From assembly GCA_947650285.1 (NCBI GenBank), contig CANTFL010001182.1, positions 62,001 through 126,000 on the forward strand: a DNA stretch of 64,000 nucleotides, given 5' to 3'. The DNA is from Hyaloperonospora brassicae (taxonomy: Eukaryota; Oomycota; Peronosporomycetes; Peronosporales; Peronosporaceae). The position numbers and the translations under genes are program-made. The notes under the pieces are model-generated. The model did not search any database and was not told the origin of the DNA. It saw only the letters and a list, made by a program, of their open reading frames with translations. Of the stretch, positions 3,086-64,000 are shown piece by piece. Numbering within the stretch: position 1 is the stretch's first letter; every line of letters starts with the position of its first letter.

Positions 3086-3215
3086 TCGTCCAAGAGTTGT
3101 CAGTCTCTTCGTTCAATATCAATTTTTTCTTTTGCTTTAACCCCCAAAATCCATTGTCGATATCGTCTCCATGCTTCTTCTTCTCTTTAATCATTCTCGA
3201 TCAGGTCGCCTTTCG

Positions 3216-19684: not shown

Positions 19685-19761
19685 GAGACGGATTTAAGTG
19701 CTTAAAAACTATTAATGGGTGATTGAACTGATGCCGATTGCTGCCTAAATAACTTCAGTAT

Positions 19762-19771
19762 AGGGGGCGGT
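19762..19771 (+). other. Polypurine tract of Element 2
   Basis: AGGGGGCGGT directly before the 3' LTR, identical to Element B at 52632-52641. Confidence 0.75.
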
Positions 19772-21576
19772 TGTGGCAAAGTCACTAATCTAATATTGGG
19801 ACGTGGATCGGTGACCACACAGTAAATGCGTCACTTACTAGCGAAAAAAGTCACACCTAGTGATCCAGCGATCCAATAGGAGACGAAAGATGATCCCCCA
19901 CGGAGATAAATGATCCGATCCAACTGTCGCCATAGTGATGAACATAAAACGATTTGGGACGAAGGGTAGAATAAGATGATTTTCATGGAACAATCCGGGA
20001 CGAGTCGTGGATATATATGATTGCTAAAGATATTTCTGGGAACAGGTTGTGCGATATAATTGTGTGACGAAGGTGTAACATCCGGCAGATCGGTGACATT
20101 CTGTACCGGTCTCACAATGAGAGTACTGATTTTGACTAATTATAGGCACATCTGGAGGTGTTAATATTTATGAGAGCCCAGAGTGAATCTAGGACATTTG
20201 GAGGGCTCGTGGACAAGATAAAGTTTAGAGGATGATATTGGAGCACGTACAATGAAGAGATGAACATCTACTGTGGAATTGTACCATGTCGATCCTCATC
20301 GACCTCAAATTTGGGCACCAGATCGGTCATGTTCCTGTTGATTATGGATATATCGCTGATGATAATTTGGGATCACGATGCATATGTTTGTTGAAGATCC
20401 ATGAGTAATGTCGCAAAAGTTCAGACCAAAAGAGCCATCAGAAGCCGGTCGAATTGACGTCGCAAAATGAATTCAGACACATTTGGCATTTGGGTACTAT
20501 TCAGAGCTCTCCGATACCAAAATTGGGAATTTGATACGATATATGGGATCTGGTTCTCATTTGGTGTATAGGTACGATATCGGGAGTATTGGCGCTATCT
20601 TTGGAGTACAGGACATGAAATTCCGACACGTGTTGAAGGGGGCGGCCAAGCTTAAAGGTGATATCGGTTTGGAGAGTGACCTATAGTTTGGAATAGGCTT
20701 AAAGATGGGTTGGCTATTAATTTGGTTGGTTAATAAATAGACTTGAACTCTACTTCTTCTGAACACGACGCGCGTTCCCTCCCTCTCTTCCGGGCAAGAT
20801 TTCGTTGGCTTCCCCGACGGTTTGAGGCACGCGTGCTACAAGGACACTGAACACCGATCTTGGATTGTTGGCCAGGATCGAGAAGAGCGATCTCGGGATA
20901 ATCTGGCCCGGATCGATCAAGTACTCACACTCAACTCAACTACTAGGGTAGCAGAAACACAAGGAAAAGGAAAAGGACATTGGTTACAAGATCGCGAGAC
21001 GGCTCAAGTGGTCAGAAGATCTGGACAAGGCGTTCAAGACAAGACCGAGCAAGATCGAAGCGATCTACAGGGCAGATCGGCACGTTTCATTTTGGCGAAA
21101 CAAGCAACCGATCCACCCATATTGCGCACTTCCGGCAAGATCGGCCGATCCCGAGACTAGATCGGACCGATCCCAACGCAAGATCGACGCAAGACAACTA
21201 TTTGCTGAGTGAAGATTTCCGCACAGCGAAGACCCCGATCCCGAAGACAAATCGAGATCGGTGTGATTCAAGATCCAGATCGCGACATCGCCCAAGAGTG
21301 ACTGCCGCGACTCAAGATCAAGATCGCAGAACCCCGTTCGTGGTGTGAAGATTTCCGCACCGGAAGCGAACACTTAACCCCAAACCCTCAGCGAGATCGA
21401 CATTCCTAAAGGAAACTACGAAGAGCTCATGTCAGCCCAACCCACGGGTACACAAGGTAAGCACAAGGCTATACAGAAAGGTAGAAATCGGAGTACCCCC
21501 TCCGTGAGTCGGCAAGTCCGGGCACGTGGAATATCGACCCTCACATCTGCGATTTTGTTAGATCGACTTCACCACA
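19772..21576 (+). repeat. 3' LTR of Element 2 (complete)
   Basis: 1805 bp from TGTGGCAAAGTCAC to TTCACCACA. The sequence after 21576 is unrelated to gag, which fixes the LTR end for the family. Its distal half (20450-21570) is nearly identical, inverted, to 32660-33810. Open frames inside it are by-products of GATC-rich sequence. Confidence 0.9.
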
Positions 21577-39846: not shown

Positions 39847-41710
39847 TGTGGCAAAGTCACTAATCAAATTTTCTACGAGGATCGGTGACCACATATTTGA
39901 GGCGCCACTTACTGGTGGAGAATTAGACCACGGGACCTGGCGATCCAATGAGAGATGGGAGGCGATCCCGACGGAGAAAGACGATACGATCCAACTGTCG
40001 TCAGACTGACGGGTATGGAACGATCTGAGACGGGGCGTGAAAAGGGATGATTCCCATGCTGCGATCTGGGACAAGGAATGATTGTAACGGTGCGATCTGG
40101 GACAAGGGACTGGATTGTACTAAACGGCTGATCTGAAGCAGAATTACTCTGGGAAAGGTGCATCTGGGACCAGACGATGCGAAGTGACTCTGTGACAACG
40201 GTGTTGAAGTCTATTAGATCGGTGACATTCTATACCGGGCTCCCAAAAGAAGTACTGATTTAGGTTAATTATGGACCGATCTGGAATTGTGGATGTTTGT
40301 GGGAGTCCGTGGGACCGTTGTAAGAACTATGGATGGTCCCATTGAGCAGATAGACCCTTGGGAATGGTATTGGAGTACACACAATGAACGGAAACGACAT
40401 ATAGGGCCGGATCGCACTGTGTCGAGCCTACTCGATCTCGAATTGGACATCAGATCGGTCATGTTCCCTGCTGGTTATGGATATATCGATGATGGAGCTA
40501 TCGTATGATGATGTACATGCTCGTTGAAGGTCCATGAGAGATGTCCCAAAAGTTCAGACCGAAAGAGCCAGTGGAAGCCGGTCGAATGGACGTCGCAAAA
40601 TGGATTTAGACACATTCGGCATTTGGATACTATTTTGGACTTTTCGGTATCAAAATTGGGTATTTGGTACCGTATTTGGAATTTGGTCCCTTCTGGTGTC
40701 TAGGTACGATATCGGGAGTATTGGCGCTATCTTTGGAGTACAGGTCACGAGATTTCGACACGTGTTCAAGGGGGCGGTCAAGCTTAAAGGTGATATCGAC
40801 TTGGACAGTGACCTACGGTTGGGAATAGGCTTAATGATAGGTTGGATATTAATTTGGTTGGTTAATAAACAGACTTGAACTCTACTTCTTCTGCTCACGA
40901 CGCACGTTCCCCTCCCCTCTTCTCCGGGCAAGATTGATTTGGCTTCCCCGGCGGGTCAAGGCGCGCGTGTTACAAGGACACAGAAGACCGATCTTGGATT
41001 GTTGGCCAAGATCGAGAAGAGCGATCTCGGGATATTTGGCCCGGATCGATCAAGTACTCACACTCAACTCAACTGCTAGGGTAGCAGCAACATCAGGAAA
41101 AGGAAAAGGATTTTGGTCACAAGATCGCGAGGCGGCTCAAGTGGTCAGAAGATCTGGACAAGGAGTTCAAGACAAGACCGAGCAAGATCGAAGCGATCTA
41201 CAGGGCAGATCGGCACGTTTCATTTTGGCGAAACAAGCAACCGATCCACCCATATTGCGCACTTCCGGCAAGATCGGCCGATCCCAAGACCAGATCGGAC
41301 CGATCCCAACGCAAGATCGACGCAAGACAACTATTTGCTGAGTGAAGATTTCCGCACAGCGAAGACCCCGATCCCGAAGACAAATCGAGATCGGTGTGAT
41401 TCAAGATCGAGATCGCGACATCGCCCAAGAGTGACTGCCGCGACTCAAGATCAAGATCGCAGAACCCCCGTTCGTGGTGTGAAGATTTCCGCACCGGAAG
41501 CGAACGCTCAACCCCAAACCCTCAGCGAGATCGACATCTCCCAAGGCCGTTACGAAGAGCTCAAGCCAGCCCAACCGACGGGTACACAAGGTGAGCACAA
41601 GGTTATACAGCAAGGCACGGATCGGAGTACCCCCTCCGTGAGTCGGCAAGTCTGGGCAAGTGGAAGATTGACACTCACTAAAGTAATTTTGTGAGATCGA
41701 CTTCACCACA
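39847..41710 (+). repeat. 5' LTR of Element B
   Basis: 1864 bp, TGTGGCAAAGTC...GACTTCACCACA, with imperfect 12-base inverted ends. The first third has repeated GATCTGGGACAAGG-type motifs (40027, 40057, 40093, 40165). AATAAA occurs near 40864 and is kept in all copies, a possible poly(A) signal. A conserved block (41579-41660) contains TACACAAGGTGAGCACAAGG and the hairpin CGGAGTACCCCCTCCG. The gag ATG follows the last base. Confidence 0.95.
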
Positions 41711-44197
41711 ATGGTGCGCGTGCCCGGATCTTCTGAGGCCTCTGGATTTCACCGTGAGTCCACTGGCGAAGATGTCAAGATCAAGCAAGAACCTGGGATT
41801 GAAGTGTCAGCGACAGAGGGATCGACGCAGACACGCAGAAACACAAGATCCTCAGATCATCAGAGTTTTGGGAGGGGCCCTGATGAAAAGAAAATGGAAG
41901 AGGAAGATCGAGAGATCGATCTGGAAGATAAACCTCAAATACCTCCTAGGGCCCTTTCGGGGGCCACCGCAGATCGCTCTGCAAAGAGCGATCTGCTGGA
42001 TGAAAATCCAATGGTGAAAACCACATCGGCGAAAGCCAAACCCTATTCCTTCGTCGAGAGATCGCCCGACCTCAAGCCGAGACACTCGACCGCGAGATCG
42101 ACCGCATTGGAACGATCCAAGATGAGATCGGTGGGATCAGACGTCAAAGAGCGACAGATCGGCCACACCGTGCAACCGAAGACCGGAGTCAAGGAGGAAT
42201 GCGATGAAGCACCAGGTAAGATCGCGAAGCCAAAGACGGAATACAACCCAGGGAAGATCGCGTCCAGGGAGAAGGAGACGAACAGCGAAGCGCGGGACCG
42301 TGCAAAGTGGCAGTATTATTATGGCCATTTGAAAACGCTACTCAAGACGGATCCAGTGTTCAAGATATTAAGGCCCAAGTTGATCGGTCCTCTGGACAAG
42401 CCGATCTCGGTCCCACCTCCGGGGACCAACAAAGTTGACGAGATCAATTTGATTTTGCAGATGTTGGATGACATGGGTGTCTGCCCTAACGCTTTTGATG
42501 GAGATGAACTGCTGAGCTGCAGCTTGGAACAGTTGAAGAACGCGGCGAACGAGTTTGTGGAGATCATGATAATGCTGGTGGGCAAAGCCAACGCTCCTGA
42601 AGACAAGCTCGAGACACCTTTTGATTCGCTTCAGGAACACGCCGTGGGATCGCCCCGCTACGCCTCGGACGACTCCGAGAGCGAGTCAGATGGATCCATC
42701 AGCATTCGTCGAATGTCGTTAGGACCGTCTGGCGGTATGTTTTTAAAGGACAAGATCGGCCAAGCCAAGATCGACGCCTTTAAAGGACAAGCCAAGAGCG
42801 ACATGCCACAGAGATCGGCCGGTACCCGTACTAGGCTGAATGATCAAGAAGAGGGCGATCTAAGCCGGCACTTCAATGCAGCCATGAGGAAGTACGAGGC
42901 GGATCAACGTACAGCTCAGCGAATGACTCGACAGCCGACCCACTACCCAGATCGCCGTGCCTTTTTCCATCCCTCGCACGAAAGCCATGACATGCCGGAT
43001 GTGGAGATGGAATCGGTGAAGTCGGACACTTACCAGCAGATCCATCAAGAGGCGGAATACGACCCGGACGATTTATGGATGCCCGAACCACGGCGCCCTC
43101 ACGTAGCCTCGACCGGTGTGACTGCCGGAGGGGGAAACATCACGCAGAGGATCAGAATCTCAGCGATTTCGGAACTGAAAGAATTCTCAGGGAAGGATCG
43201 GGAAGAAGACAAAGCACGAACCTGGATCGGCAAAGTGAAGTCAGCGTTCCTCCGGGATCAAGCACCGGACGAAGAGAGATGTCTGGTTTTCGGTGATCTC
43301 ATGGTGGGCCCCGCCCGTTATTGGTACCGACAGCTGAGTAGATCGACGAGATTCAATTGGAAGGAGTTGATGAACAGCTTTCTTGTGGAATATGCGGGAC
43401 ACGGGATGTCCGCGAGCCGACAGTATTACCACGCAAAGAAACGATCGGAGGAAGATCCTTTGCAGTACCTGTATCGGCTTAATGTGATGGGAATGGAAGC
43501 GAAGATACCAGTGATGACTGGATCGCCAGCTGCGCGCAAGGAACATGTCAACCATTTCATTGACACTTTGGACGACCCCGATCTGTCCAATCAATTGCTA
43601 CTGCTGAATGTAGAAGACGCGGAGGCCATGCAAAAGACACTGCATGGATATCAACAAGGGAGATCGCGTCAAGGGAAAGTGATGATGGGATCGTCCAAGT
43701 TCAGACAGAAGGGAACTCAGGGTCCAGCGCTGTCTAAGCCTGCACGAGCGGTGAGGATGATCCGTACCGAGGATGTCAGCAGCGAGTCAGGATCGGACAC
43801 TTACGGATCGGATTTGGAAGATCGATTGAGATCAGTCCATGTGGCTGCCACTACGGATCGGCGTTCATCTCCTAATGACGTTACAGCAAACGCGAGATCG
43901 GTCGACCCGAACAATCGTCGAGACTATCAAGATCGCAATTTGCCATCGAAGCCGTGTACTCATTGCGGATCGACCAAGCATGGAGATCTCGGTTGCTGGA
44001 AGCGGCTCACTTGCCAGAAGTGTGGGCGTAAAGGACACCCCTCTGACAACTGTTTCTTCGTGTGCCGTGCCTGCGGTGAGATGCACGACCCGGGGAAGTG
44101 TCCCATGGAGGAGTTCTACAACATGATCCGCCAGTGGTATGTCCCGAACAAGCATGCGGGGATGCTGCCAGAGAAGGCCGAGAAGATGTTAAACTAG
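41711..44197 (+). CDS. gag: Gag polyprotein of Element B
   Basis: 828 codons. The start is the ATG touching the LTR end; the same start (MVRVPG) is kept in Elements 1 and C. Residues 1-290 are charged and low in complexity. A capsid-like Retrotrans_gag domain covers about 490-650 (ELKEFSGKDREEDKARTWI, ARYWYRQL, YAGHGMSASRQYYHAKKR). Three zinc knuckles lie at 749-797: CTHCGSTKHGDLGC and CQKCGRKGHPSDNC fit C-X2-C-X4-H-X4-C, and CRACGEMHDPGKC is one residue short. It would package the RNA and form the particle. It ends at TAG on a frameshift signal. It is unusually long for Gypsy Gag. Compared with Element C, most of the protein is nearly identical, but residues 295-475 hold most of the differences. 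Confidence 0.95.
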   Translation: MVRVPGSSEASGFHRESTGEDVKIKQEPGIEVSATEGSTQTRRNTRSSDHQSFGRGPDEKKMEEEDREIDLEDKPQIPPRALSGATADRSAKSDLLDENPMVKTTSAKAKPYSFVERSPDLKPRHSTARSTALERSKMRSVGSDVKERQIGHTVQPKTGVKEECDEAPGKIAKPKTEYNPGKIASREKETNSEARDRAKWQYYYGHLKTLLKTDPVFKILRPKLIGPLDKPISVPPPGTNKVDEINLILQMLDDMGVCPNAFDGDELLSCSLEQLKNAANEFVEIMIMLVGKANAPEDKLETPFDSLQEHAVGSPRYASDDSESESDGSISIRRMSLGPSGGMFLKDKIGQAKIDAFKGQAKSDMPQRSAGTRTRLNDQEEGDLSRHFNAAMRKYEADQRTAQRMTRQPTHYPDRRAFFHPSHESHDMPDVEMESVKSDTYQQIHQEAEYDPDDLWMPEPRRPHVASTGVTAGGGNITQRIRISAISELKEFSGKDREEDKARTWIGKVKSAFLRDQAPDEERCLVFGDLMVGPARYWYRQLSRSTRFNWKELMNSFLVEYAGHGMSASRQYYHAKKRSEEDPLQYLYRLNVMGMEAKIPVMTGSPAARKEHVNHFIDTLDDPDLSNQLLLLNVEDAEAMQKTLHGYQQGRSRQGKVMMGSSKFRQKGTQGPALSKPARAVRMIRTEDVSSESGSDTYGSDLEDRLRSVHVAATTDRRSSPNDVTANARSVDPNNRRDYQDRNLPSKPCTHCGSTKHGDLGCWKRLTCQKCGRKGHPSDNCFFVCRACGEMHDPGKCPMEEFYNMIRQWYVPNKHAGMLPEKAEKMLN
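41712..41729 (+). other. Primer-binding site overlapping the gag start codon
   Basis: TGGTGCGCGTGCCCGGAT begins one base after the LTR. Its reverse complement ends CACGCGC-A-CCA preceded by CCGGG, which is the exact anatomy of a tRNA 3' end: T-stem strand, 7-base acceptor strand, discriminator, CCA. I cannot name the tRNA. The TG of the gag ATG are its first two bases. Confidence 0.7.
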
Positions 44198-44237: not shown

Positions 44238-45504
44238 TAGGCTCTGCATTATTGCATACGTGGAGAAAAAGAAGACGGATCGCGAGAGTAAGCAGGATAC
44301 AGATATGGAAACAAATATATCTCGTTCGAAGTCAAAACGTCTTGCTTCCGTGTCCCATCTGAAGCGGATCGATGAATACTCGCGATCTGAACCAACTATG
44401 GAGATCGAGCTCGCTTACGGTGAATCTCGCGGATACTGGAAACATTATTCGCCCGGGAAGTGGTTCAAACAAGCGAAAGCTGTTGGCAAGATCAACAATG
44501 TAAAAGCCACTCTGCTATTTGATTCTGGTGCTGAAGTGTCGATCATTGACACCACCTTTGCTCGTGAGGTCGGTTGCAATATTGACGAGAGTCAACGACA
44601 AGAATGTATCGGGATCGGAGAAGCTCCGTACATGACGATAGGACGTACCAAGATCAAAGTAACCCTCGCGGGATCGTTAGTATACTATTTCAATGTGTGG
44701 GTAGGCGATCTGGCAGGGCAAGAAGCGATTCTGGGCATGGACTTTATGGTTCCTGCCGGAGTGCGGCTCGACCTAGCGGATGGTGCGCTATGTCTACCAG
44801 AAGAAATCCGCATTCACCTCGCAGGACGTCGCCCCGCGTACGGATCGAAGATACAACATATAACGGCGAAGGACCAACATGTGGTGATCCCGGTCGGAGA
44901 GTCAAGGGAAGTGAAGATCGGGATCGGAGGGGCTAAGATGAAGTTGTGGGTCGCCAGAGGACCAGACTGGGTACCTACAGTGATCTCGGGGTTTGGTAGT
45001 AGGAAGTACCTGCAGATGACCAACACTGGCGACCATGAGATCATATTGCCCACCCACACTATATTGGGCTTGTGGACCGAAGGCGATATGGTACCACGAA
45101 CTCAAGGTTTCGTGACGGTCGGATCGGGGAAGTACAAGGAGTGGCAAACTCTGGCGTATGAGGCTACGACGGATCGAGTGAAGGAACTCCCAAAAGAACA
45201 TACCGGCCCACTGGTAGATCGCCCTACGTATGCCACCCCCAAACGTATCGTGAAACGACCGTCTGATACGTTGAAGAACCTATCTCCAGCGATCTCCACG
45301 GTAACGCAACAAGCTAACAATGGCGAATCGCAAAAGGCAGATGCTGTGGTTGCCAAGGAAGAAACAGTCAACAGAGCCGAGCTATTGTGGATGGAAAACG
45401 ACCATGAGATCGGAACCCAACATGCAACGAAGGGAGATCGCGATATCGATCAAGAATGGCTACGTGACATATCGTCTCTATCGAGAACCGATCCGACCGA
45501 GTAA
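44188..45504 (+). CDS. Protease region of Element B (-1 frame to gag)
   Basis: Made as a Gag fusion by -1 shifting; the open frame extends back to 44098 inside gag. A retropepsin-type aspartic protease core is visible: LLFDSGAEVSIID with the catalytic Asp at 44521, EAPYMTIGRTKIKVTL, and the second motif AILGMDFM. A C-terminal extension of about 200 residues follows (GSGKYKEWQTLAYE, Lys/Thr-rich). The frame stops at TAA 45502-45504, and pol continues in the +1 frame. The core matches the other elements, while the last part is variable. Confidence 0.85.
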   Translation, partial: VKLGRSPGLNLVRAERSRLCIIAYVEKKKTDRESKQDTDMETNISRSKSKRLASVSHLKRIDEYSRSEPTMEIELAYGESRGYWKHYSPGKWFKQAKAVGKINNVKATLLFDSGAEVSIIDTTFAREVGCNIDESQRQECIGIGEAPYMTIGRTKIKVTLAGSLVYYFNVWVGDLAGQEAILGMDFMVPAGVRLDLADGALCLPEEIRIHLAGRRPAYGSKIQHITAKDQHVVIPVGESREVKIGIGGAKMKLWVARGPDWVPTVISGFGSRKYLQMTNTGDHEIILPTHTILGLWTEGDMVPRTQGFVTVGSGKYKEWQTLAYEATTDRVKELPKEHTGPLVDRPTYATPKRIVKRPSDTLKNLSPAISTVTQQANNGESQKADAVVAKEETVNRAELLWMENDHEIGTQHATKGDRDIDQEWLRDISSLSRTDPTE

Positions 45505-48500
45505 ACTGCTGAGGTCGGAGCAGCCGGGAGAGATGAAAGAGCCTAAGGAAGAAGCAATGTTAAAGACTGAAGATGCCGAGATCGCGGGAACACCAGTTTA
45601 CTACCACGAGAGCGGAGATTTGTTTGCTGAAGATATCGAGCAACACATGGCGGTACTACCAGAAATGTCGGCGACTACAGAAGAAGTTACGATTGAGGAC
45701 ATTCAGATCGGCGATCCCGATGTGCCTCTCACCACAGATCAACAGCGGCTCAGATCGCTGATCTGGAAGAGCCGTCACCTCCTCATGGGTAGAGGTAATG
45801 CTCTACCACCAGCAGCACGAGGCGCGATCTGTGATATTGATGTCGGTGGGGCAGCACCGATAGCGCAAAGAGTACGTCCGGTCGCACCTAAATATCGGGA
45901 GAAGCTATCGGACCTCATCAAAGGACTACTAGCGGCCAAGATCGTCCAGCCATCCACGTCACCGTGGGCGTCTCCGATAGTGGTGATCATCAAGAAGAAC
46001 GGAGTGGATATTCGCCTTTGCATTGATTATCGAAGAGTGAATCAGCTGACACGTCTGATGGTTTATCCCATGCCGTTGATCAGCGATCTATTAGAAGACC
46101 TAGATAAAGCTTTATGGTACTGTTCGCTGGATATGGCTAGTGGATTCTGGGTGGTTGAGATGACTGAGCGAGCCAAACTGATCTCAGCGTTTGTCACACC
46201 GTTTGGTCTTTTCGAGTGGCTGCGAATGCCTTTTGGGCTTAAGAACGCGCCCCAAATCTATCAACGTCTGGTCGACAATGCGCTGTATGGATACCTCAAG
46301 ATTGGCCAGAGATCATCCGCTGATGGCCAGATCGACGTGTTCAAAGATGGTGAACCGGAGACAGATCGACGACCTTCTATACTGGGACGCCGATCTTACA
46401 TTGACGACATCCTCATACCAGCCACTTCATGGGAGTCTCTGTACGCAAAAGTAGAGCGATTGCTGGAAGCATGTGATAAGTGGAATTTGTCTATCAGTCT
46501 CACAAAAAGTTTTTGGGGGTGCCGTAAGGTCGACTATTTGGGACACCGAGTGTCGATTGATGGTTTGGAGGCTCAGCCCAAGAACTTAGAGTCGTTGGTC
46601 AACATCCCGTTCCCTAGCACGCTACGAGCTATGCAATCTTTTCTCGGGAGTTTGAACTACTACCGCCGCTTCATTGAAGATTTCGCGGTGTACGCCGCGG
46701 TGTTATATGAGTTAAGAGAATCGGATTTCTTCGAGATCGGCCGATCTCAGCTCGCAGCAGGAGAAGAATGGTTGAACGAAGATCGATGGAAGGAAGCCAA
46801 GGTTGCTTTCACTATGCTAAAGGCTAAGATAGCTACCGCTCCTATGCTCAAACATTTCGACCCAGATCGCCCTCCTGTGATCGTAGTCTACGCTAGCAAG
46901 TGGGCTGTTTCAGCGGCCCTGATACAGGAGTACGAGGGCGTATACCATCCGGTTACGTTTACTAGCCGCACCTTGAAGCCCAACGAGCTTAACTATGGAA
47001 CGGTGGAAAAGGAAGTGCTGGCGCTACTTCGTGTTTTGGATGTATGCTACACTACGCTTGCTTCGCGAGAGATCACTGTGCTGACCCGACATTCTACGTT
47101 AGCGTGGTTGATGCAATCTCGAGGACTCAACGGGAGATTAGGACGGTGGGCTGCTTTGTTGTCGAACTGGACTATGGAGGTGAAGAGGTGCGAAAAAGGA
47201 GAAGAAGAGATTCTGGGTATGCTAGCAGCAAGTATCACTCCGAGAGAAGAGGTAGAAGAGATGCTGATCGCGATTTCCCCTCGAAAAGACTGCCGACTCA
47301 AAGTATCGATGCCTCCTCCAACGGTGGAAACGGATGAAGAGTTGTTGGTGGCCAGTTTCGACGGATCGGCTAGGATCAAAAAGAAAGGAGGGTCGTACAG
47401 TGCTGTGGTATGGAAGTTACCCGAGTGGACGATTGTGGCGGCAGAATCTAGATATGCTCACGATTTGACTGTGAATGAAGCGGAGTATAATGGCTTGCTA
47501 TTGTGCTTTGAGTTACTCGCCGATCTGGACAGGGGGCGAGTAATTCTGTGTGGAGATTCTAATTTGGTGATTCGACAGATGCGCGGTGAGATCGACTGCA
47601 AGGCACCGGGCCTTCAGCTTCTGAGACACAAAGCGTTGGAGAAGCTGCGGTCATGGCCTAGTCACGAGTTTCTACATATGAAGCGAGAGTGGAATCAGAG
47701 CGCAGATCGACTAGCCAGCACAGCGTTGCAGAACGAAAAAGGAAGAACAATTGTAGCTGAAGAAGATCGGCAAGATCTGATGACACTGAACCGTCTCGAC
47801 GAATTGTTGAAGCCCAAGCAAGATGGTCAGCTGGCTCGGGTAACTGCAATCACGAGATCGGCCGAGAGGATACGTCATGAACCTGAAGTGATACAGGAAG
47901 AGATAGTGCAGCGAATTAGGATTCAACGGATTGTCCAAGCTCAAGATGAAGAGCGTTGGATTGTTAATCTCAAGAAGTATCTAAGTGGCGATGTGTCAAA
48001 CTTGGACGCGGGAGCAGTGAAGGTATGCGCAAAACTGGCGCCGGAGTACGAGATCGATGAGAACGATCTGCTATTTTTCTGCCCCACGGCGAAAAGAAAG
48101 TCAGAAGATCGTGATGGTTTGATGCGGTTGGTGATCCCTGAGACGTTGCAACAAGACTTCTTGCACCACTATCATACGAGTCTAGAAGGAGGCCACCAGG
48201 GTATCGGCCGAACCTATCAGAAGATTAGATCGCGATTCCATTGGAGAGGACTGTACCGGAGCGTTCAACGATATGTGGGCGAATGTATCGACTGTGAAAC
48301 CGGAAAAGGAAGCCCGATGATTCATGGGAGATCCCCGGGGAACCTACACGCATCCTATCCATTCCAGATCATAGCAATGGATCATATACCGTCGTTGCCC
48401 AAGTCCATCAAGGGGAACACCGAACTGCTCATTTGGGTGGACCTCTTCTCAGGATATGTAATTGCAAAGGCTAGCTCTTCACGGACGGCACAAACAATAG

Positions 48501-49549
48501 CGGAAAATTACGAAGAATGTGTGTTTCGACGCTTCGGGGCTAGCGAGGCTATCAGGCACGATCGAGAACCGGGATTTATGTCCGACTTCTTTCGAGCCTT
48601 CAGCCGGATCGTAGGACAAAAACAGCGTGCTACCATGGCTTACAGGCCACAAGCAAATGGAACAGCCGAGCGAATGGTGCAAACCTTGACGCATTCGCTC
48701 AAGATGTACGTGGCTGAAGTTGACCAACGAGACTGGGATGAGTATGCTGAGCGGCTCACATTTGCCATCAACACCGCTCAAGATCGAGTTCGAGGGGACA
48801 CCCCATTCTATCTGATTCATGGATGGGACCCGCGATCAACGTTGGAAGCTACGTTATCAGTGGGAAACACGAGGACGAGAGATCGCGATCCAAAGCGGTG
48901 GAGATATAGTATTCAAAGACAATATCAGCGAGCTCGATCAGCGGTGAATGATCAACTACGACTTGCGATCCACGAGAGGGCAGATCGCCATAACGAAGAC
49001 GTAGAACAACACGAGATCGAAGTGGGAACGCAAGTTTGGCTATACCTGGATCGAGTTAAAGAAGGATATGCGAAGAAGCTAGCGCACATGTGGCATGGGC
49101 CATTCCGAGTTGCAGACATATGTGGAGAGCACGCTGTGAAACTGGAGATCGCTGGGACCCCGTATCGGCTATTTCCGATTGTACATTTATCGAAGCTGAA
49201 GAAGGTAAAAACGTTCCCTGAACGGCCGAAGGATCAGCTTACGATAGACGAAGCAGATCGTTTGGACTTTGATGAAGCTTTGCTGCCAGAAGACAGTTGG
49301 GAGAGCGATCTCGAAGAGGGAGAATACGAAGTAGAAGAAATATTGGACGTGCGATCTGGTAGGAAAACCCGTTATGGGCGAGTACACCGACAGTTTCTGG
49401 TGAAGTGGAAGGGACATCCCGATTTAAGTTGGGTGGATGAGGCCGATCTGAGTTGTGGGGCGATCTTGCAAGAGTTTGAACGGAACCGAGTGAGTCGAAA
49501 CCGTTTTGAAGCAATGCAGTCTCACGAAGGCAAGTCGGACGAACCTTAA
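45320..49549 (+). CDS. pol: Pol of Element B: RT, RNase H, second RNase H, integrase, chromodomain
   Basis: 1409 open codons; the real N-terminus probably begins near 45475-45540, since the first 60 codons overlap protease. RT spans about 150-430, with the catalytic YIDD at 360-363. A usual Gypsy RNase H follows (about 510-600, VVYASKWAVSAALIQEY), apparently degenerate. Then comes a second, complete RNase H (about 675-805): D681 in FDGSA, E722 in NEAEYNG, D746 in GDSNL, D796 in SADRLA. Integrase has the HHCC region (about 950-995), then D1021, D1081 and E1117 (D-D-35-E). A C-terminal chromodomain (about 1335-1395, FLVKWKGHPDLSWVDEADL) would direct insertion to chromatin. It lies in the same frame as gag and +1 to protease. 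Nothing essential looks broken. Confidence 0.95.
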   Translation: MANRKRQMLWLPRKKQSTEPSYCGWKTTMRSEPNMQRREIAISIKNGYVTYRLYREPIRPSKLLRSEQPGEMKEPKEEAMLKTEDAEIAGTPVYYHESGDLFAEDIEQHMAVLPEMSATTEEVTIEDIQIGDPDVPLTTDQQRLRSLIWKSRHLLMGRGNALPPAARGAICDIDVGGAAPIAQRVRPVAPKYREKLSDLIKGLLAAKIVQPSTSPWASPIVVIIKKNGVDIRLCIDYRRVNQLTRLMVYPMPLISDLLEDLDKALWYCSLDMASGFWVVEMTERAKLISAFVTPFGLFEWLRMPFGLKNAPQIYQRLVDNALYGYLKIGQRSSADGQIDVFKDGEPETDRRPSILGRRSYIDDILIPATSWESLYAKVERLLEACDKWNLSISLTKSFWGCRKVDYLGHRVSIDGLEAQPKNLESLVNIPFPSTLRAMQSFLGSLNYYRRFIEDFAVYAAVLYELRESDFFEIGRSQLAAGEEWLNEDRWKEAKVAFTMLKAKIATAPMLKHFDPDRPPVIVVYASKWAVSAALIQEYEGVYHPVTFTSRTLKPNELNYGTVEKEVLALLRVLDVCYTTLASREITVLTRHSTLAWLMQSRGLNGRLGRWAALLSNWTMEVKRCEKGEEEILGMLAASITPREEVEEMLIAISPRKDCRLKVSMPPPTVETDEELLVASFDGSARIKKKGGSYSAVVWKLPEWTIVAAESRYAHDLTVNEAEYNGLLLCFELLADLDRGRVILCGDSNLVIRQMRGEIDCKAPGLQLLRHKALEKLRSWPSHEFLHMKREWNQSADRLASTALQNEKGRTIVAEEDRQDLMTLNRLDELLKPKQDGQLARVTAITRSAERIRHEPEVIQEEIVQRIRIQRIVQAQDEERWIVNLKKYLSGDVSNLDAGAVKVCAKLAPEYEIDENDLLFFCPTAKRKSEDRDGLMRLVIPETLQQDFLHHYHTSLEGGHQGIGRTYQKIRSRFHWRGLYRSVQRYVGECIDCETGKGSPMIHGRSPGNLHASYPFQIIAMDHIPSLPKSIKGNTELLIWVDLFSGYVIAKASSSRTAQTIAENYEECVFRRFGASEAIRHDREPGFMSDFFRAFSRIVGQKQRATMAYRPQANGTAERMVQTLTHSLKMYVAEVDQRDWDEYAERLTFAINTAQDRVRGDTPFYLIHGWDPRSTLEATLSVGNTRTRDRDPKRWRYSIQRQYQRARSAVNDQLRLAIHERADRHNEDVEQHEIEVGTQVWLYLDRVKEGYAKKLAHMWHGPFRVADICGEHAVKLEIAGTPYRLFPIVHLSKLKKVKTFPERPKDQLTIDEADRLDFDEALLPEDSWESDLEEGEYEVEEILDVRSGRKTRYGRVHRQFLVKWKGHPDLSWVDEADLSCGAILQEFERNRVSRNRFEAMQSHEGKSDEP

Positions 49550-49804: not shown

Positions 49805-52553
49805 CTAAGATGATGGAGCAGGCTTGAACTTGTCCTGTAGACGAGGGATCTGCGATCCGGGGTGATCCCAATAGGCGTTACGGAACTGATTGCGCCAAGG
49901 ATCCTCTTGGTCCGCCATATCCAATGCCTCTAACAAGTCGGCGGGGTCGTTAGAGTGTCCTAACCCTGGATACCAAACTCGTTCTTCATGTGGGCGCGGA
50001 TAGTGGAGGAAGAAGGGATCCAGCAAGATGTCGAGATCGCAGTGGCCAGCGATCATGCCGTTGAGTATCATCTTCAAGAAGTTCTTCCAACGTGCTCCAA
50101 AACGAGATCGGCGTTGCTTTCGTTGACGCCAGAATGTTTGCATGAACCGGTCGGATCGTCGTTGGGCCTGGGAGATCGGGAAAGCATGAGTGGACTCCCA
50201 CAGAGCTTGGCGATGAGTGGACTCGAGCTCCAGGTAGCGATGGCTCATGTCGCTGTACCATCCAGTCATGGTGAACGATATCGGGTTCACGGGGACCACG
50301 ATATTATCCCAAGGGGCGGTAGCGTAAAGAGACTCGATGTGTTGCCGTGAGATCAGCCCAGAAGCCCAAGTCCCCGTAGGCGGGGCTCGCCCATGATTGT
50401 GGAAGGGGAACAGAAAATTCCTGGGCTTGGAGTAGTGGTGAAACAGCAGCTCAATGGTCATGGTCCGCACACAAACCATCGCGATGCGCGAAACTGACCA
50501 TGGAGCGATCTCGGACGCCACCCGTCGGGAAGGCGCCAGATAGTTGGGAATCCACCGATCCCGTGGCTGCTGGAGTGGCGGAAGGTTGTCGAAATCAACG
50601 GAAGAAATGATTCTGTTAGCCACTGGGCGCGTCGGAAGGATGATGCTGTTATCGCTGTCGGACAAATGGCGATCCGAAAGCGCAGTGGACCCCGGAGGCG
50701 GACTAACGGAGCCAGTCTCTCTGTGTGTCTCCTCTGTCGGCGACGCCTCCACATCTTCCACGTAACCATCATCTTGAATTTCAACTACGGGAACAGCCGC
50801 GACCGGAGTGGACGGGTACGAAAGATAACGAGGCTCCGGAGCGGCTGGAGAGGGCGACCGCGATAGTGTCTTGAGCCAACATAGTAGCTGCGGAAGAAGC
50901 GGGAGCAACCTGAGCAGCCGGAGAGGGGTCCGGAATTGAAGATCGGGCAGCCGATCTAGGTTGACGACGAGCGGCCGATCTCGAGTGGGACAATACAGAA
51001 CGAGTTAAATCGTCCGAGCTGGAGTCCGACCCGGTCAGCTCCCCACTTCCCGATCCCGTCCCAGAAGTCGTGGACGAAGGCGGAGAAGAAGAGGAATCGG
51101 ATGAAAGCTCGGGTGGGTCCGATCTGGGAAGTTTCTTGGAAGGTGTTGAGGGGTTCAACGACAATAGCCGGGAGGCCACACGGGAGGTAGAAGAATCTCG
51201 GGATCGTGACCTTAGTTGAACACGCCGACGCTTGGCAGGCGGGCCAGACGATCTCGATCTGGACCTACGGGCAAGCGATCTCGATCTCTGGGTAGTGGAA
51301 GCGGGTGGCGATCTGGCCTGAGTAGCACTCGTAGGCGTCGGTCGAACGGTCAATGTAGAGGATTGGGACCCGAGTATGGCACTGTTCAGTGTGTCGAGCA
51401 GCGCTCGGTGCTCGGCTATGGCCCGATCCCGATCGTGTTCCGCCACCTGTAGCTGGTCGTGTACCGTGAGGTGTTCCGCAAGCTGACGACGGAGGTTGGC
51501 GTTTTCTAGCCGCGAAAGTGCCAACTGACCCTCCAGAGGAGTCAAGCCATCCACTTGTTGTATGAGATCGCTGATCGAAGCCAGTCCCTCTGCGATCTCC
51601 GCCTGAGATCGAGCCAATTGCTCCTTCAAGTGCAGAACATCTATGTGAAGGAAAGACCTGTCGGAGGTCAGCTGGTCGCGCTGCCGTCGGAGAGAATTAA
51701 GCTCGGCTTGGAGCGAGTGCATTTGAGTCCTCAAAGCGTTCACCTGTCGTTCCAAGCTGCCTTGATCCTCCTCGTTGGCACGTAACAAAGCGCGTAGTCG
51801 ACGAACCTCCTCCGATTGATCGCGATGTGTCTGCAGAGCTCGTTTACAGTCGCTTAAAGAATGTACTGCGTCGACGTAGCGGCCCTGCATCCAATCGTAT
51901 CGACGCTGGACGAAGGAGACGAAGGGGGCGACCAGTTCATGCAGAGAATCAATTTCTTCGTCCAAACGATCCCCCCGGGCGACCGCATCTCGGTATAAAT
52001 GCTGAAGCTCATGAATGGTGTCGGCTTGGCTGCGGAAGGTGGCCTCGCGATCCCATAAATAAGAGATCGTAGCCAACGTAAGACGAACGTCGTCGGCAGA
52101 AACTCTTGGAACGCGGCCGGTAACGTCCGCAGCTGGAGCAGACTCTGTCCGAGACTCACTAATGGCCAGGGCGTCGGATCTAAATACACCCAGAGTCGCC
52201 GGAGGTACGGGAAGTGAGGACGGTTCAAACGGACGATCTGGTGAGTCCGTGATGATCGAGGGCGATCCGACCGAACGGGAATCACTTAAAGACTCACGTC
52301 GATCCTGCGATCCAGACGGTAAGTCTTGGGTTGGAGACGAGGGTCTGGTCGGCTGTCGATCTGGCGATCTCGTGGCGATCACTGGCGATCCGGCCGAATG
52401 TAGACTACTGGGGGATGCATGTCGATCAGGGACGATGGGAGCATACCACCCGCGATCCGGCGATCCAGGTGACGGGTCGCGATCCGGAGACAGGAACACG
52501 GTGGAGCCTTCCGACGAGATCGGCGAGGTGGGGAGATGCTTCGGAGGGACCAT
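49805..52553 (-). pseudogene. Antisense gene (aORF) of Element B, one frameshift
   Basis: The gene runs from ATG 52553, 88 bp inside the 3' LTR, to TAG 49805. A 590-codon frame (52553-50781) and a 367-codon frame (50908-49805) join at about 50869, where B has one extra base compared with C; without it the protein would be about 900 residues. Residues 1-150 are rich in Ser, Pro, Asp and Arg (SPDR-like repeats). About 170-400 form a coiled coil (LHELQHLYRD, VNALRTQMHSLQAEL). About 405-450 are Arg/Ser-rich with a basic PPAKRRR cluster, a possible nuclear signal. A Ser-rich acidic part follows, then a C-terminal domain of about 250 residues (SVDFDNLPPLQQPRDRWIP, PISFTMTGWYSDM, QRRSRFGARWKNFLK, GHCDLDILLDPFFLHY). 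I recognise no family, no membrane segment and no envelope features. The function is unknown. Confidence 0.8.
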
Positions 52554-52641: not shown

Positions 52642-54505
52642 TGTGGCAAAGTCACTAATCAAATTTTCTACGAGGATCGGTGACCACATATTTGAGGCGC
52701 CACTTACTGGTGGAGAATTAGACCACGGGACCTGGCGATCCAATGAGAGATGGGAGGCGATCCCGACGGAGAAAGACGATACGATCCAACTGTCGTCAGA
52801 CTGACGGGTATGGAACGATCTGAGACGGGGCGTGAAAAGGGATGATTCCCATGCTGCGATCTGGGACAAGGAATGATTGTAACGGTGCGATCTGGGACAA
52901 GGGACTGGATTGTACTAAACGGCTGATCTGAAGCAGAATTACTCTGGGAAAGGTGCATCTGGGACCAGACGATGCGAAGTGACTCTGTGACAACGGTGTT
53001 GAAGTCTATTAGATCGGTGACATTCTATACCGGGCTCCCAAAAGAAGTACTGATTTAGGTTAATTATGGACCGATCTGGAATTGTGGATGTTTGTGGGAG
53101 TCCGTGGGACCGTTGTAAGAACTATGGATGGTCCCATTGAGCAGATAGACCCTTGGGAATGGTATTGGAGTACACACAATGAACGGAAACGACATATAGG
53201 GCCGGATCGCACTGTGTCGAGCCTACTCGATCTCGAATTGGACGTCAGATCGGTCATGTTCCCTGCTGGTTATGGATATATCGATGATGGAGCTATCGTA
53301 TGATGATGTACATGCTCGTTGAAGGTCTATGAGAGATGTCCCAAAAGTTCAGACCGAAAGAGCCAGTGGAAGCCGGTCGAATGGACGTCGCAAAATGGAT
53401 TTAGGCACATTCCTTATTTGGATACTATTTTGGACCTTTCGGTACCAAAATTGGGTATTTGGTACCGTATTTGGAATTTGGTCCCTTTTGGTGTCTAGGT
53501 ACGATATCGGGAGTATTGGCGCTATCTTTGGAGCACAGGTCACGAAATTTCGACACGTGTTCAAGGGGGCGGTCAAGCTTAAAGGTGATATCGACTTGGA
53601 GAGTGACCTACGGTTGGGAATAGGCTTAATGATAGGTCGGATATTAATTTGGTTGGTTAATAAACAGACTTGAACTCTACTTCTTCTGCTCACGACGCAC
53701 GTTCCCCTCCCCTCTTCTCCGGGCAAGATTGATTTGGCTTCCCCGGCGGGTCAAGGCGCGCGTGTTACAAGGACACAGAAGACCGATCTTGGATTGTTGG
53801 CCAAGATCGAGAAGAGCGATCTCGGGATATTTGGCCCGGATCGATCAAGTACTCACACTCAACTCAACTGCTAGGGTAGCAGCAACATCAGGAAAAGGAA
53901 AAGGACATTGGACACAAGATCGCGAGACGGCGCAAGTGGTCAGAAGATCTGGACAAGGCGTTCAAGACAAGACCGAGCAAGATCGTTTCGATCTACAGGG
54001 CAGATCGGCACGTTTCATTTTGGCGAAACCCAGGACCGATCTGCCCACATTGCGCACTTCCGGCAAGATCGGCCGATCCCGAGACCAGATCGGACCGATC
54101 CCAACGCAAGATCGACGCAAGACAACTATTTGCTGAGTGAAGATTTCCGCACAGCGAAGACCCCGATCCCGAAGACAAATCGAGATCGGTGTGATTCAAG
54201 ATCGAGATCGCGACATCGCCCAAGAGTGACTGCCGCGACTCAAGATCAAGATCGCAGAACCCCCGTTCGTGGTGTGAAGATTTCCGCACCGGAAGCGAAC
54301 GCTCAACCCCAAACCCTCAGCGAGATCGACATCTCCCAAGGCCGTTACGAAGAGCTCAAGCCAGCCCAACCGACGGGTACACAAGGTGAGCACAAGGTTA
54401 TACAGCAAGGCACGGATCGGAGTACCCCCTCCGTGAGTCGGCAAGTCTGGGCAAGTGGAAGATCGACACTCACTAAAGTAATTTTGTGAGATCGACTTCA
54501 CCACA
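52642..54505 (+). repeat. LTR shared by Elements B (3') and C (5')
   Basis: 1864 bp, the same length as 39847-41710. It is preceded by the Element B polypurine tract and followed directly by the Element C primer-binding site and gag, so it serves both units. Differences from the first LTR cluster near 53400-53480 and 53900-54060. Confidence 0.95.
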
Positions 54506-56992
54506 ATGGTGCGCGTGCCCGGATCTTCTGAGGCCTCTGGATTTCACCGTGAGTCCACTGGCGAAGATGTCAAGATCAAGCAAGAACCTGGGATTGAAGT
54601 GTCAGCGACAGAGGGATCGACGCAGACACGCAGAAACACAAGATCCTCAGATCATCAGAGTTTTGGGAGGGGCCCTGATGAAATGAAAATGAAAGAGGAA
54701 GATCGAGAGATCGATCTGGAAGATAAACCTCAAATACCTCCTAGGGCCCTTTCGGGGGCCACCGCAGATCGCTCTGCAAAGAGCGATCTGCTGGATGAAA
54801 ATCCAATGGTGAAAACCACATCGGCGAAAGCCAAACCCTATTCCTTCGTCGAGAGATCGCCCGACCTCAAGCCGAGACACTCGACCGCGAGATCGACCGC
54901 ATTGGAACGATCCAAGATGAGATCGGTGGGATCAGACGTCAAAGAGCGACAGATCGGCCACACCGTGCAACCGAAGACCGGAGTCAAAGAGGAATGCGAT
55001 GAAGCACCAGGTAAGATCGCGAAGCCAAAGACGGAATACAACCCAGGGAAGATCGCGTCCAGGGAGAAGGAGACGAACAGCGAAGCGCGGGACCGTGCAA
55101 AGTGGCAGTATTATTATGGCCATTTGAAAACGCTACTCAAGACGGATCCAGTGTTCAAGATATTAAGGCCCAAGTTGATCGGTCCTCTGGACAAGCCGAT
55201 CTCGGTCCCACCTCCGGGGACCAACAAAGTTGACGAGATCAATTTGATTTTGCAGATGTTGGATGACATGGGTGTCTGCCCTAACGCTTTTGATGGAGAT
55301 GAACTGCTGAGTTGCAGCTTGGAACAGTTGAACAACGCGGCGAATGAGTTTGTGGAGATCATGATTATGCTGGTGGGCAAAGCCAATACTCCTGAAGACA
55401 ATACCGAGACACCCTCAGACTCGCTCCAGGAACACCCCGCGGGATCGCCCCGCTACGCTTCGGATGACTCCGAGAGTGAGTCAGATGGATCCATCAGCAT
55501 TCGTCGGATGTCTCTAGGACCATCGGGTGGTACGTTTTTAAAGAACAAGATCGGCCAAGCCAAGATTGACGCCGTTAAAGGACGAGCCAAGAGCGACATG
55601 TTACTGAGATCGGCCGGTACCCGTACTGAGCTGGACGATCAAGAAGAGGGCGATCTAAGTCGGCACTTCAATGCAGCCATGAAGAAGTACGAGGCGGATC
55701 AACGTACAGCTCAGCGAATGAATCGACAGCCAAACCACTACCCAGATCGCCGTGCCTTTCTCCAACCCTTGCACGAAAGCCATCACATGCCGGATGTGGA
55801 GATGGAATCGGTGGAGTCGGACACTTACCAGCAGATCCATCATGGGGCGGAATACGACCCAGATGATCTATGGATGCCCGAACCACGGCGCCCTCACGTA
55901 GCCGCGACTGGTGTGACTACCGGAGGGGGGAGCATCACGCAGAGGATCAGAATCTCAGCGATTTCGGAACTGAAAGAATTCTCAGGGAAAGATCGGGAAG
56001 AAGATAAAGCACGAACCTGGATCGGCAAAGTGAAGTCAGCGTTCATCCGGGACCAAGCACCGGACGAAGAGAGATGTCTGGTTTTCGGTGATCTCATGGT
56101 GGGCCCCGCCCGTTATTGGTACCGACAGCTGAGTAGATCGACGAGATTCAATTGGAAGGAGTTGATGAACAGCTTTCTTGTGGAATATGCGGGACACGGG
56201 ATGTCCGCGAGCCGACAGTATTACCACGCAAAGAAACGATCGGAGGAAGATCCTTTGCAGTACCTGTATCGGCTTAATGTGATGGGAATGGAAGCGAAGA
56301 TACCGGTGATGACTGGATTGCCAGCTGCGCGCAAGGAACATGTCAACCATTTCATTGACACCTTGGACGACCCCGATCTGTCCAATCAATTGCTACTGCT
56401 GAATGTAGAAGACGCGGAGGCCATGCAAAAGACACTGCATGGATATCAACAAGGGAGATCGCGTCAAGGGAAAGTGATGATGGGATCGTCCAAGTTCAGA
56501 CAGAAGGGAACTCAGGGTCCAGCGCTGTCTAAGCCTGCACGAGCGGTGAGGATGATCCGTACCGAGGATGTCAGCAGCGAGTCAGGATCGGACACCTACG
56601 GATCGGATTCGGAAGATCGATTGAGATCGGTCCATGTGGCTGCCACTACGGATCGGCGTTCATCTCCTAATGACGTTACAGCAAACGCGAGATCGGTCGA
56701 TCCGAACACTCGTCGAGACTATCAAGATCGCAATATGCCATCGAAGCCGTGTACTCATTGCGGATCGACCAAGCATGGAGATCTCGGTTGCTGGAAGCGG
56801 CTCACTTGCCAGAAGTGTGGGCGTAAAGGACACCCCTCAGACAATTGTTTCTTCGTGTGTCGTGCCTGCGGTGAGATGCACGACCCGGGGAAGTGTCCCA
56901 TGGAGGAGTTCTACAACATGATCCGCCAGTGGTACGTCCCAAACAAGCATGCGGGGATGCTGCCAGAGAAGGCCGAGAAGATGTTAAACTAG
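54506..56992 (+). CDS. gag: Gag polyprotein of Element C
   Basis: 828 codons, the same length as in B, with the same start at the LTR end, the same capsid-like region and the same three zinc knuckles. Differences from B concentrate at residues about 293-475 (for example TPEDNTETPSDS against APEDKLETPFDS); outside this patch only a handful of residues differ. Open and apparently functional, so C could still supply Gag or be packaged by it. Confidence 0.95.
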   Translation: MVRVPGSSEASGFHRESTGEDVKIKQEPGIEVSATEGSTQTRRNTRSSDHQSFGRGPDEMKMKEEDREIDLEDKPQIPPRALSGATADRSAKSDLLDENPMVKTTSAKAKPYSFVERSPDLKPRHSTARSTALERSKMRSVGSDVKERQIGHTVQPKTGVKEECDEAPGKIAKPKTEYNPGKIASREKETNSEARDRAKWQYYYGHLKTLLKTDPVFKILRPKLIGPLDKPISVPPPGTNKVDEINLILQMLDDMGVCPNAFDGDELLSCSLEQLNNAANEFVEIMIMLVGKANTPEDNTETPSDSLQEHPAGSPRYASDDSESESDGSISIRRMSLGPSGGTFLKNKIGQAKIDAVKGRAKSDMLLRSAGTRTELDDQEEGDLSRHFNAAMKKYEADQRTAQRMNRQPNHYPDRRAFLQPLHESHHMPDVEMESVESDTYQQIHHGAEYDPDDLWMPEPRRPHVAATGVTTGGGSITQRIRISAISELKEFSGKDREEDKARTWIGKVKSAFIRDQAPDEERCLVFGDLMVGPARYWYRQLSRSTRFNWKELMNSFLVEYAGHGMSASRQYYHAKKRSEEDPLQYLYRLNVMGMEAKIPVMTGLPAARKEHVNHFIDTLDDPDLSNQLLLLNVEDAEAMQKTLHGYQQGRSRQGKVMMGSSKFRQKGTQGPALSKPARAVRMIRTEDVSSESGSDTYGSDSEDRLRSVHVAATTDRRSSPNDVTANARSVDPNTRRDYQDRNMPSKPCTHCGSTKHGDLGCWKRLTCQKCGRKGHPSDNCFFVCRACGEMHDPGKCPMEEFYNMIRQWYVPNKHAGMLPEKAEKMLN
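54507..54524 (+). other. Primer-binding site of Element C
   Basis: TGGTGCGCGTGCCCGGAT, identical to Element B and again overlapping the gag ATG at 54506. Confidence 0.7.
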
Positions 56993-62608: not shown

Positions 62609-64000
62609 CTAAGACGATGGAGCAGGCTTGAACTTGTCCTGTAGACGAGGGATCTGCGATCCGGGGTGATCCCAATAGGCGTTACGGAACTGGTTGCGCC
62701 AAGGATCCTCTTGGTCGGCCATGTCCAATGCCTCTAGCAAGTCAGCTGGGTCGTTAGAGTGTCCTAACCCTGGATACCAAACTCGTTCTTCATGTGGGCG
62801 CGGATAGTGGAGGAAGAAGGGATCCAGCAAGATGTCGAGATCGCAGTGGCCAGCGATCATGCCGTTGAGTATCATCTTCAAGAAGTTCTTCCAACGTGCT
62901 CCAAAACGAGATCGGCGCTGCTTTCGTTGACGCCAGAACGTTTGCATGAACCGTTCGGATCGTCGTTGGGCTGGAGAGATCGGGAAAGCATGAGTAGATT
63001 CCCACAGAGCTTGCCGATGAGTGGACTCGAGCTCCAGGTAGCGATGGCTCATGTCTCTGATACCATCCAGTCATGGTGAACGATATCGGGTTCACGGGGA
63101 CCACGATATTATCCCAAGGGGCGGTAGCGTAAAGAGCCTGGATGTGCTGCCGCGAAATCAGCCCAGAGGCCCAAGTCCCCGTCGGAGGAGCTCGCCCATG
63201 ACTGTGGAAGGGGAACAGAAAATTCCTGGGTTTGGAGTAGTGGTGAAACAGCAGTTCAATGGTCATGGTCCTCACACAAACCATCGCGATCCGCGAAACT
63301 GACCAGGGAGCGATCTCGGAAGCTACCCGTCGGGAAGGCGCCAGATAGTTGGGGATCCACCGATCCCGTGGCTGCTGGAGTGGTGGAAGATGGTCGAAAT
63401 CAACGGAAGAGATGACTCGGTTAGCCACTTGGCGCGCCGGAAGGGTGATGCTGTTATCGCTGTCGGACGAATGGCGATCCGAAAGCGCAGTAGACCCCGG
63501 AGGCGGACTAGCGGAGCCAGTCTCGCTATGTGTTTCTCCTGTCGGCGACACTTCCATATCTTCCACGTCTCCATCATCTTGAATTTTAATTACGGGGGCA
63601 GCCGCGACCGGAGAGGATGGGTACGAAAGATAACGGGGCTCCGGAGCGTCTGGAGAGAGCGACCGCGACAGTGCTTGAGCCGATGCGGTAGCTGCGGAAG
63701 AAGCGGAAGCTACCTGGGCAGCCGGAGAGGAGTCTAAAGTCGAAGATCGGGCATCCGATCTAGGCTGACGACGGGCGGTCGATCTCGAGCGGGACAACAC
63801 GGAACGGGTCATATCTCCCGAGCTATAGTCTGACTCGGTTGGCTCCCCACTTACCGATCCAGTCCTAGAAGACGTAGACGAGGACGGCGAAGAAGAAGAA
63901 TTGGGTGAAGGCTTGGGCGGGGTCGGTATGGGGAGTTTCTTGGAAGATATTGAGGGATTCAACGACAATAGCCGGGAGGCCACACGGGTGGCAGAAGAAT
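62609..64000 (-). pseudogene. Antisense gene (aORF) of Element C, one frameshift, cut by window edge
   Basis: The same gene as 49805-52553, entered from the right edge in its Ser-rich middle. The frame is open from 64000 through PISFTMTGWY to about 63058, including the place where B is shifted. One extra base there (TCTCTGATACC, against TCGCTGTACC in B) moves the reading to the frame 63052-62609, which carries the rest of the C-terminal domain (SHRYLELESTHRQALWEST, GHCDLDILLDPFF) to the stop at 62609. Confidence 0.8.

Follow-up and report, generated by a model that had tools for sequence, protein, structure and literature searches.

An antisense gene that lies between pol and the 3′ long terminal repeat (LTR) of a Ty3/Gypsy retrotransposon family in the oomycete Hyaloperonospora brassicae almost certainly codes, or did so until recently, for a protein of the element that is maintained by selection. 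We studied a stretch of 64,000 nucleotides (contig CANTFL010001182.1, positions 62,001 to 126,000; hereafter the window), which is part of an assembly of 100.6 Mb in 898 contigs. Each of its four elements (Element 1, Element 2, B and C) carries such an antisense open reading frame (aORF), and each of the four copies is broken. For example, the gene of element B occupies two overlapping open reading frames (ORFs) in different minus-strand frames (50781-52553, 590 aa, and 49805-50908, 367 aa), and this copy is therefore frameshifted. Its antisense ATG at 52553 lies next to a 3′ LTR that begins at 52642, and its stop at 49805 lies 255 bp beyond the end of the pol ORF at 49549. These coordinates and the spacing had been given correctly in an initial annotation made from the letters of the window, and the limits of the gene in B stand as proposed there, although in this copy it is not a single open frame. 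The C-terminal domain, which the same annotation had called alignable even in the diverged Element 1, was indeed recovered there by tblastn, as were the domains of Element 2 (17069-17883, minus strand, 66-74% identity) and element C (62612-63428, minus strand, 96-99% identity).

Intact copies of the gene are present elsewhere in the assembly. A DNA search with positions 50500-51500 yielded 163 candidates, of which 40 copies, B and 39 others, were scored, and in 14 of these 40 the antisense frame is open without a break for 867-1014 codons, as far as the normal stop. Most of the intact copies are 97.7-99.1% identical to B (loci L009, L010, L012, L013, L014, L015, L017 and L022-L025), and three are 87-88% identical (L027, L029 and L030); L015 is counted as intact with a first ATG far inside the frame. 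For seven intact copies, the maximum open length across this DNA was 123-173 codons on the sense strand and 135-179 codons in the other antisense frames, and with sense-strand stretches as short as these the aORF is no shadow of a sense gene. As a separate observation, the B-type copies L012, L015 and L021 all lose their homology to B at the same point, close to the LTR-side start of the aORF.

Comparison of diverged intact copies revealed purifying selection on the encoded protein, which is at its strongest in the C-terminal domain and constrains the Ser/Pro-rich start weakly. Ratios of nonsynonymous to synonymous substitution (dN/dS) were calculated by the method of Nei and Gojobori, over 259 codons for the C-terminal domain. 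In this domain the ratio was 0.07 for five pairs (L013-L029, L013-L030, L027-L029, L027-L030 and L029-L030), 0.22 for L013-L027 and 0.21 for L013-L022. For the same seven pairs it rose to 0.14-0.29 in the coiled coil, 0.23-0.44 in the basic/acidic middle and 0.35-0.68 in the Ser/Pro-rich start, and it was 0.25-0.40 over the whole frame. Similarly, a pair from another subfamily (L084-L085) gave 0.16 for the C-terminal domain; pairs that span the three subfamilies have high or saturated dS values, and their ratios cannot be relied on. The integrase-chromodomain region of the corresponding diverged elements gave 0.02-0.05 (for L013 over the 188 codons that could be compared), and integrase pairs with a dS of about 0.03 or less gave scattered values of 0.12-0.87. 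The past selection that the initial annotation had suspected is thus borne out: diverged intact copies in the host assembly have ratios well under 1 when compared with one another.

The pattern of changes was also compared with a neutral simulation, in which random substitutions were introduced at the observed number and transition share in 1000 runs per pair. The whole frame stayed free of stops in none of 1000 runs for L013-L027, L013-L029, L013-L030 and L027-L030, in 22 of 1000 for L029-L030 and in 86 of 1000 for L084-L085. The observed number of amino-acid changes over the whole frame fell below the minimum of the 1000 simulations in all six pairs; in the C-terminal domain it fell below the minimum in four pairs and equalled it in L013-L027 and L029-L030. 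In addition, changes are in excess at third positions of the antisense frame.

To place the gene within its elements, an integrase query was used, for which 116 matches of 4000 candidates were scored, and aORF matches were pooled into 186 loci. At 82 of the 116 integrase matches an aORF in opposite orientation was located no more than 3 kb downstream (4 of the 82 through a DNA match); it never lay on the same strand (0/116), with a chance expectation of about 0.3% per locus. At the 78 matches other than these four, the gap was 221-561 bp with a median of 292. Viewed from the aORF, pol was found in opposite orientation at 29 of 30 flanked domain loci (L048-L077), the exception being L051. The pooled list missed Element 2, whose aORF was found by tblastn, and its inclusion brings the count to at least 83/116, so the absence from most family members that the initial annotation had named as a possible refutation did not materialise. 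Its statement that every element carries the gene holds for all four elements in the window; beyond it, no aORF was listed for 34 of the 116 integrase matches, among them Element 2, a known false negative.

Some element lineages have in fact lost the gene. For six of the 34 misses, nine queries detected no C-terminal domain within about 1 kb. In L089 the spacer that follows pol runs directly into the beginning of the aORF region and the LTR. L091 and L092, on different contigs and with 84% identity over 848 bp, have one aORF-less junction in common, in which an Element 1-type LTR is joined to the post-pol spacer, which points to an aORF-less Element 1-type lineage at two loci. A further element without the gene (C385, comprising L088, L094 and L095) has a pol frame of 1801 codons and a pair of LTRs with 99.7% mutual identity (2 mismatches and 1 gap in 1115), which agree at up to 100% with LTRs of elements that carry the aORF. 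A deletion, which could postdate insertion, extends in C385 from the last pol residues to where the aORF region begins. Such elements, and the junction common to L091 and L092, indicate that the aORF is not needed in cis.

The regions that the initial annotation had delineated, a Ser/Pro-rich start, a coiled coil, a basic segment and a C-terminal domain, were all seen. AlphaFold gives a confident, all-helical model of the C-terminal domain (predicted local distance difference test score, pLDDT, 89.6), in which one helix has a net charge of +11 and contains the invariant R172 and W180. No Pfam family matched this domain in the window pieces or in 40 homologues. A motif SR[SA]xx(x)RR, which follows an often acidic stretch ahead of the C-terminal domain, is present in 22 of 30 sufficiently long proteins and absent from 8, by a pattern devised post hoc from these sequences, two of them the same protein, and without a shuffle control. 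A basic run resembling a nuclear localisation signal (NLS) follows the coiled coil in 24 of the 30 by a loose pattern, again without control. The highest mean hydropathy over 19 residues was 0.87-1.59 in the 15 sequences scanned, and the threshold for a membrane segment is 1.6; with no membrane-like stretch, and a gene on the minus strand against a plus-strand pol, an env-like 3′ ORF was rejected, as the initial annotation had also held.

Related proteins are present in other genera. The C-terminal piece of B retrieved 44 homologous proteins and the L030 protein 18, at BLAST identities of 32-96%. All homologues with a species name come from Peronospora (P. matthiolae and P. destructor) or Phytophthora (P. 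nicotianae, P. megakarya, P. cactorum, P. rubi, P. fragariae, P. lilii, P. idaei, P. fragariaefolia, P. palmivora and P. sojae). They are labelled hypothetical, uncharacterised or unnamed, apart from two UniRef entries called 'Autophagy-related'.

The coding capacity, the selection, the fixed place and orientation, the homologues in Peronospora and Phytophthora and the loss from some elements are observed. We think it probable, in outline, that this accessory gene of a Chronos-type Ty3/Gypsy element encodes a trans-acting nuclear protein that binds nucleic acid. A promoter of its own, in or next to the 3′ LTR, would drive the gene, and the product would oligomerise through the coiled coil, enter the nucleus by means of the basic segment and use the basic C-terminal helix to bind nucleic acid. 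The protein could then act in trans on the expression, RNA handling or nuclear stage of the element, in the manner proposed for gene23 of Grande and known for the retroviral proteins HBZ and Rev. If it acts in trans, copies that have lost the aORF may be served by intact relatives, and the aORF-less junction at two loci, together with the other aORF-less elements, would fit such action.

Several points weigh against this proposal. The case is built from genome sequence and predicted structure, the basic helix and the NLS-like runs are no more than hints, and a check of initiator motifs for an antisense promoter in the 3′ LTR decides neither way. A Foldseek search with the predicted C-terminal fold gave no significant match, and hence the structure search suggested in the initial annotation, like the profile search, assigns no function and leaves a predicted helical fold. 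The aberrant aORF-less elements, C385 included, fit dispensability as well as they fit trans action. Very recent pairs have a dN/dS of about 1 (1.12 for L078-L081 and 0.97 for L084-L087), as expected if copies decay after insertion. One database protein, P0060, from a contig of 1.9 kb, joins reverse transcriptase/RNase H and the C-terminal domain in one frame, contrary to the antisense layout. Finally, 26 of the 40 close copies, B among them, lack an uninterrupted frame. This last point would also favour a chance or shadow ORF, kept open by base composition or by a constrained sense gene and left untranslated. That reading is scarcely credible and is in the main refuted by the codon pattern: no long sense frame exists, a C-terminal dN/dS of 0.07 and the third-position excess belong to the antisense frame, and protein homologues occur in other genera.

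Other explanations accept the gene or its transcript and differ as to its role. The protein might serve a structural or replicative function in the cytoplasm that is independent of cis linkage, such as particle assembly or RNA chaperoning of the nucleocapsid kind, and its coiled coil and strongly basic C-terminal helix would suit assembly and RNA binding equally well. We consider this unlikely, though worth keeping in mind, given the NLS-like run after the coiled coil and a separate antisense expression that would make stoichiometric structural use less natural. Alternatively, the antisense transcript itself could matter, through double-stranded RNA or self-limitation of copy number, with the protein secondary. 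A regulatory role for the antisense RNAs of transposons is proposed in PMC7264820, and PMC3522703 describes small RNAs from both strands along the Gypsy elements Pi-1a and Albatross of P. infestans, which do not by themselves show an antisense gene. Selection acts on the amino acids and not merely on the strand, and this makes a primary role for the transcript improbable. A recently captured passenger, taken from the host or from another mobile element, is more improbable still: the lack of a Pfam relative would be compatible with capture, but several diverged subfamilies of the element have the gene at one position and in one orientation, with selection across them; host homologues were not systematically searched for.

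The host element belongs to a recognisable class. The pol of B has RVT_1, RT_RNaseH and Integrase_H2C2 matches above the Pfam cut-offs, as in Ty3/Gypsy elements. It also has an additional RNase H downstream of the native domain (RVT_3, residues 680-801, 38.5 bits against a cut-off of 21.6) and ends in a chromodomain (PF00385, residues 1336-1388, 31.7 bits against 25.1). In the native RNase H two expected acidic positions look replaced, as judged by eye in the translation, without alignment to the canonical motif. Dual RNase H with a chromodomain is the layout of Chronos, one of two groups of oomycete LTR elements that, according to PMC5348765, acquired an extra, Archaea-like RNase H in a development parallel to that of plant Tat elements; like the present element, Chronos has Peronosporales hosts, and Table 1 of that paper lists 1555 Chronos copies in P. 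infestans. The host element is thus probably Chronos-type, a class assigned by layout alone. The remaining features of the window are collected in the table below. From 39847 to 64000 the order is LTR-B-LTR-C, with B and C head to tail and a single LTR (52642-54506) between them, an arrangement that likely arose by LTR-LTR recombination. At 41704-41728 and 54499-54523 the LTR apparently stops 1-2 bases ahead of a 17-mer resembling a tRNA primer site, which starts within the gag start codon (ATG/TGG overlap), so that gag would begin right at the putative primer site.

Features of the window discussed in the text, with strand and basis (PBS, primer-binding site)
Feature	Position	Strand	Basis or remark
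aORF of element B, antisense accessory gene	49805..52553	-	two overlapping ORFs, overlap 50781-50908
Conserved C-terminal helical domain, 273 aa	49808..50626	-	dN/dS, AlphaFold, homologues
Arg/Ser-basic segment with NLS-like run	51085..51314	-	composition, motif scan; approximate limits
Coiled-coil region	51315..52106	-	weak Pfam coiled-coil matches; approximate limits transferred from L013
Ser/Pro-rich N-terminal part, least constrained	52107..52553	-	dN/dS 0.35-0.68
Element 1 aORF C-terminal domain, diverged	2297..3091	+	tblastn, 34% identity; 3 TGA inside
Element 2 aORF, several frames	17069..19785	-	tblastn
Element C aORF, two frames, extends past window edge	62612..63998	-	tblastn
5′ LTR of B	39847..41711	+	end inferred from PBS-like 17-mer at 41712
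gag ORF of B	41711..44197	+	weak Retrotrans_gag match, below cut-off
pol ORF of B	45320..49549	+	Pfam: reverse transcriptase, native RNase H, second RNase H, integrase, chromodomain
Second RNase H in B pol	about 47357-47722	+	Pfam
Chromodomain in B pol	about 49325-49483	+	Pfam
3′ LTR of B, occupying also the 5′ LTR position of C	52642..54506	+	

The closest parallels in layout come from plants. Antisense accessory genes of plant elements have long been described, with no known function (PMC7264820, PMC11963269), and their hosts in the Tat group carry a second, Archaea-like RNase H (PMC7264820, PMC11963269, PMC5348765); in Retand elements, according to PMC11963269, TRP28 is encoded at this place in 97% of clusters and is predicted to bind DNA. 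The oomycete aORF is like these genes (Grande gene23, RIRE2 and Retand; TRP28 or Transposase_28, PF04195) in place and strand. The Grande antisense protein is reported to be nuclear. The oomycete protein differs in having its own C-terminal helical domain and N-terminal coiled coil, and its host element has a chromodomain, unlike the non-chromovirus Retand/Tat elements. PF04195 found no match in the window pieces (E ≤ 1) or in 40 homologues (E ≤ 0.01), and membership of the TRP28 family was rejected for want of one. The initial annotation had cited the plant Tat genes as precedent, correctly, but plants are not alone: Boty of the fungus Botrytis cinerea, as cited in PMC7264820, is a Gypsy element with an antisense gene, brtn, which by its description resembles the oomycete aORF as an antisense extra gene in a different host. 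HBZ of human T-cell leukaemia virus type 1 (HTLV-1) offers a working analogy, being an antisense gene by the 3′ LTR that encodes a coiled coil and a basic segment; the oomycete aORF differs by its large C-terminal domain without a match. An HBZ-like basic leucine zipper was rejected, with bZIP_1 scoring 15.2 bits against a cut-off of 27.6.

A term search of the main text of PMC5348765, which covers Chronos, and of PMC10508981 returned no antisense ORF, and the literature searched, which covered few subscription papers, described no gene of this kind in oomycete elements. The initial annotation, to which no described gene of this architecture was known, needs the amendment that homologous Phytophthora proteins exist in databases. 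The host group is abundant, and these proteins sit in the databases as hypothetical, uncharacterised or, under the two UniRef labels, 'Autophagy-related' host proteins. An antisense gene in this place is thus of a known kind, found in plants and in the fungal Boty, and the oomycete one is seemingly unrelated to that of plants. A second lineage with a seemingly unrelated antisense gene, selected and lost in sublineages, makes the question of function testable: how an antisense protein benefits a retrotransposon, and why dual-RNase-H elements carry one. Setting the papers on plant and oomycete elements beside the present data, we tentatively suggest, as a possibility short of an even chance, that Gypsy elements with dual RNase H acquired an antisense gene for a nuclear accessory protein at this one position separately in oomycetes and in plants, that it is the third trait on which the two groups have converged, along with the additional RNase H and the decay of the native domain, and that the oomycete protein may be a trans-acting nucleic-acid-binding regulator with a fold unmatched among solved structures, exploited by gene-less derivatives.
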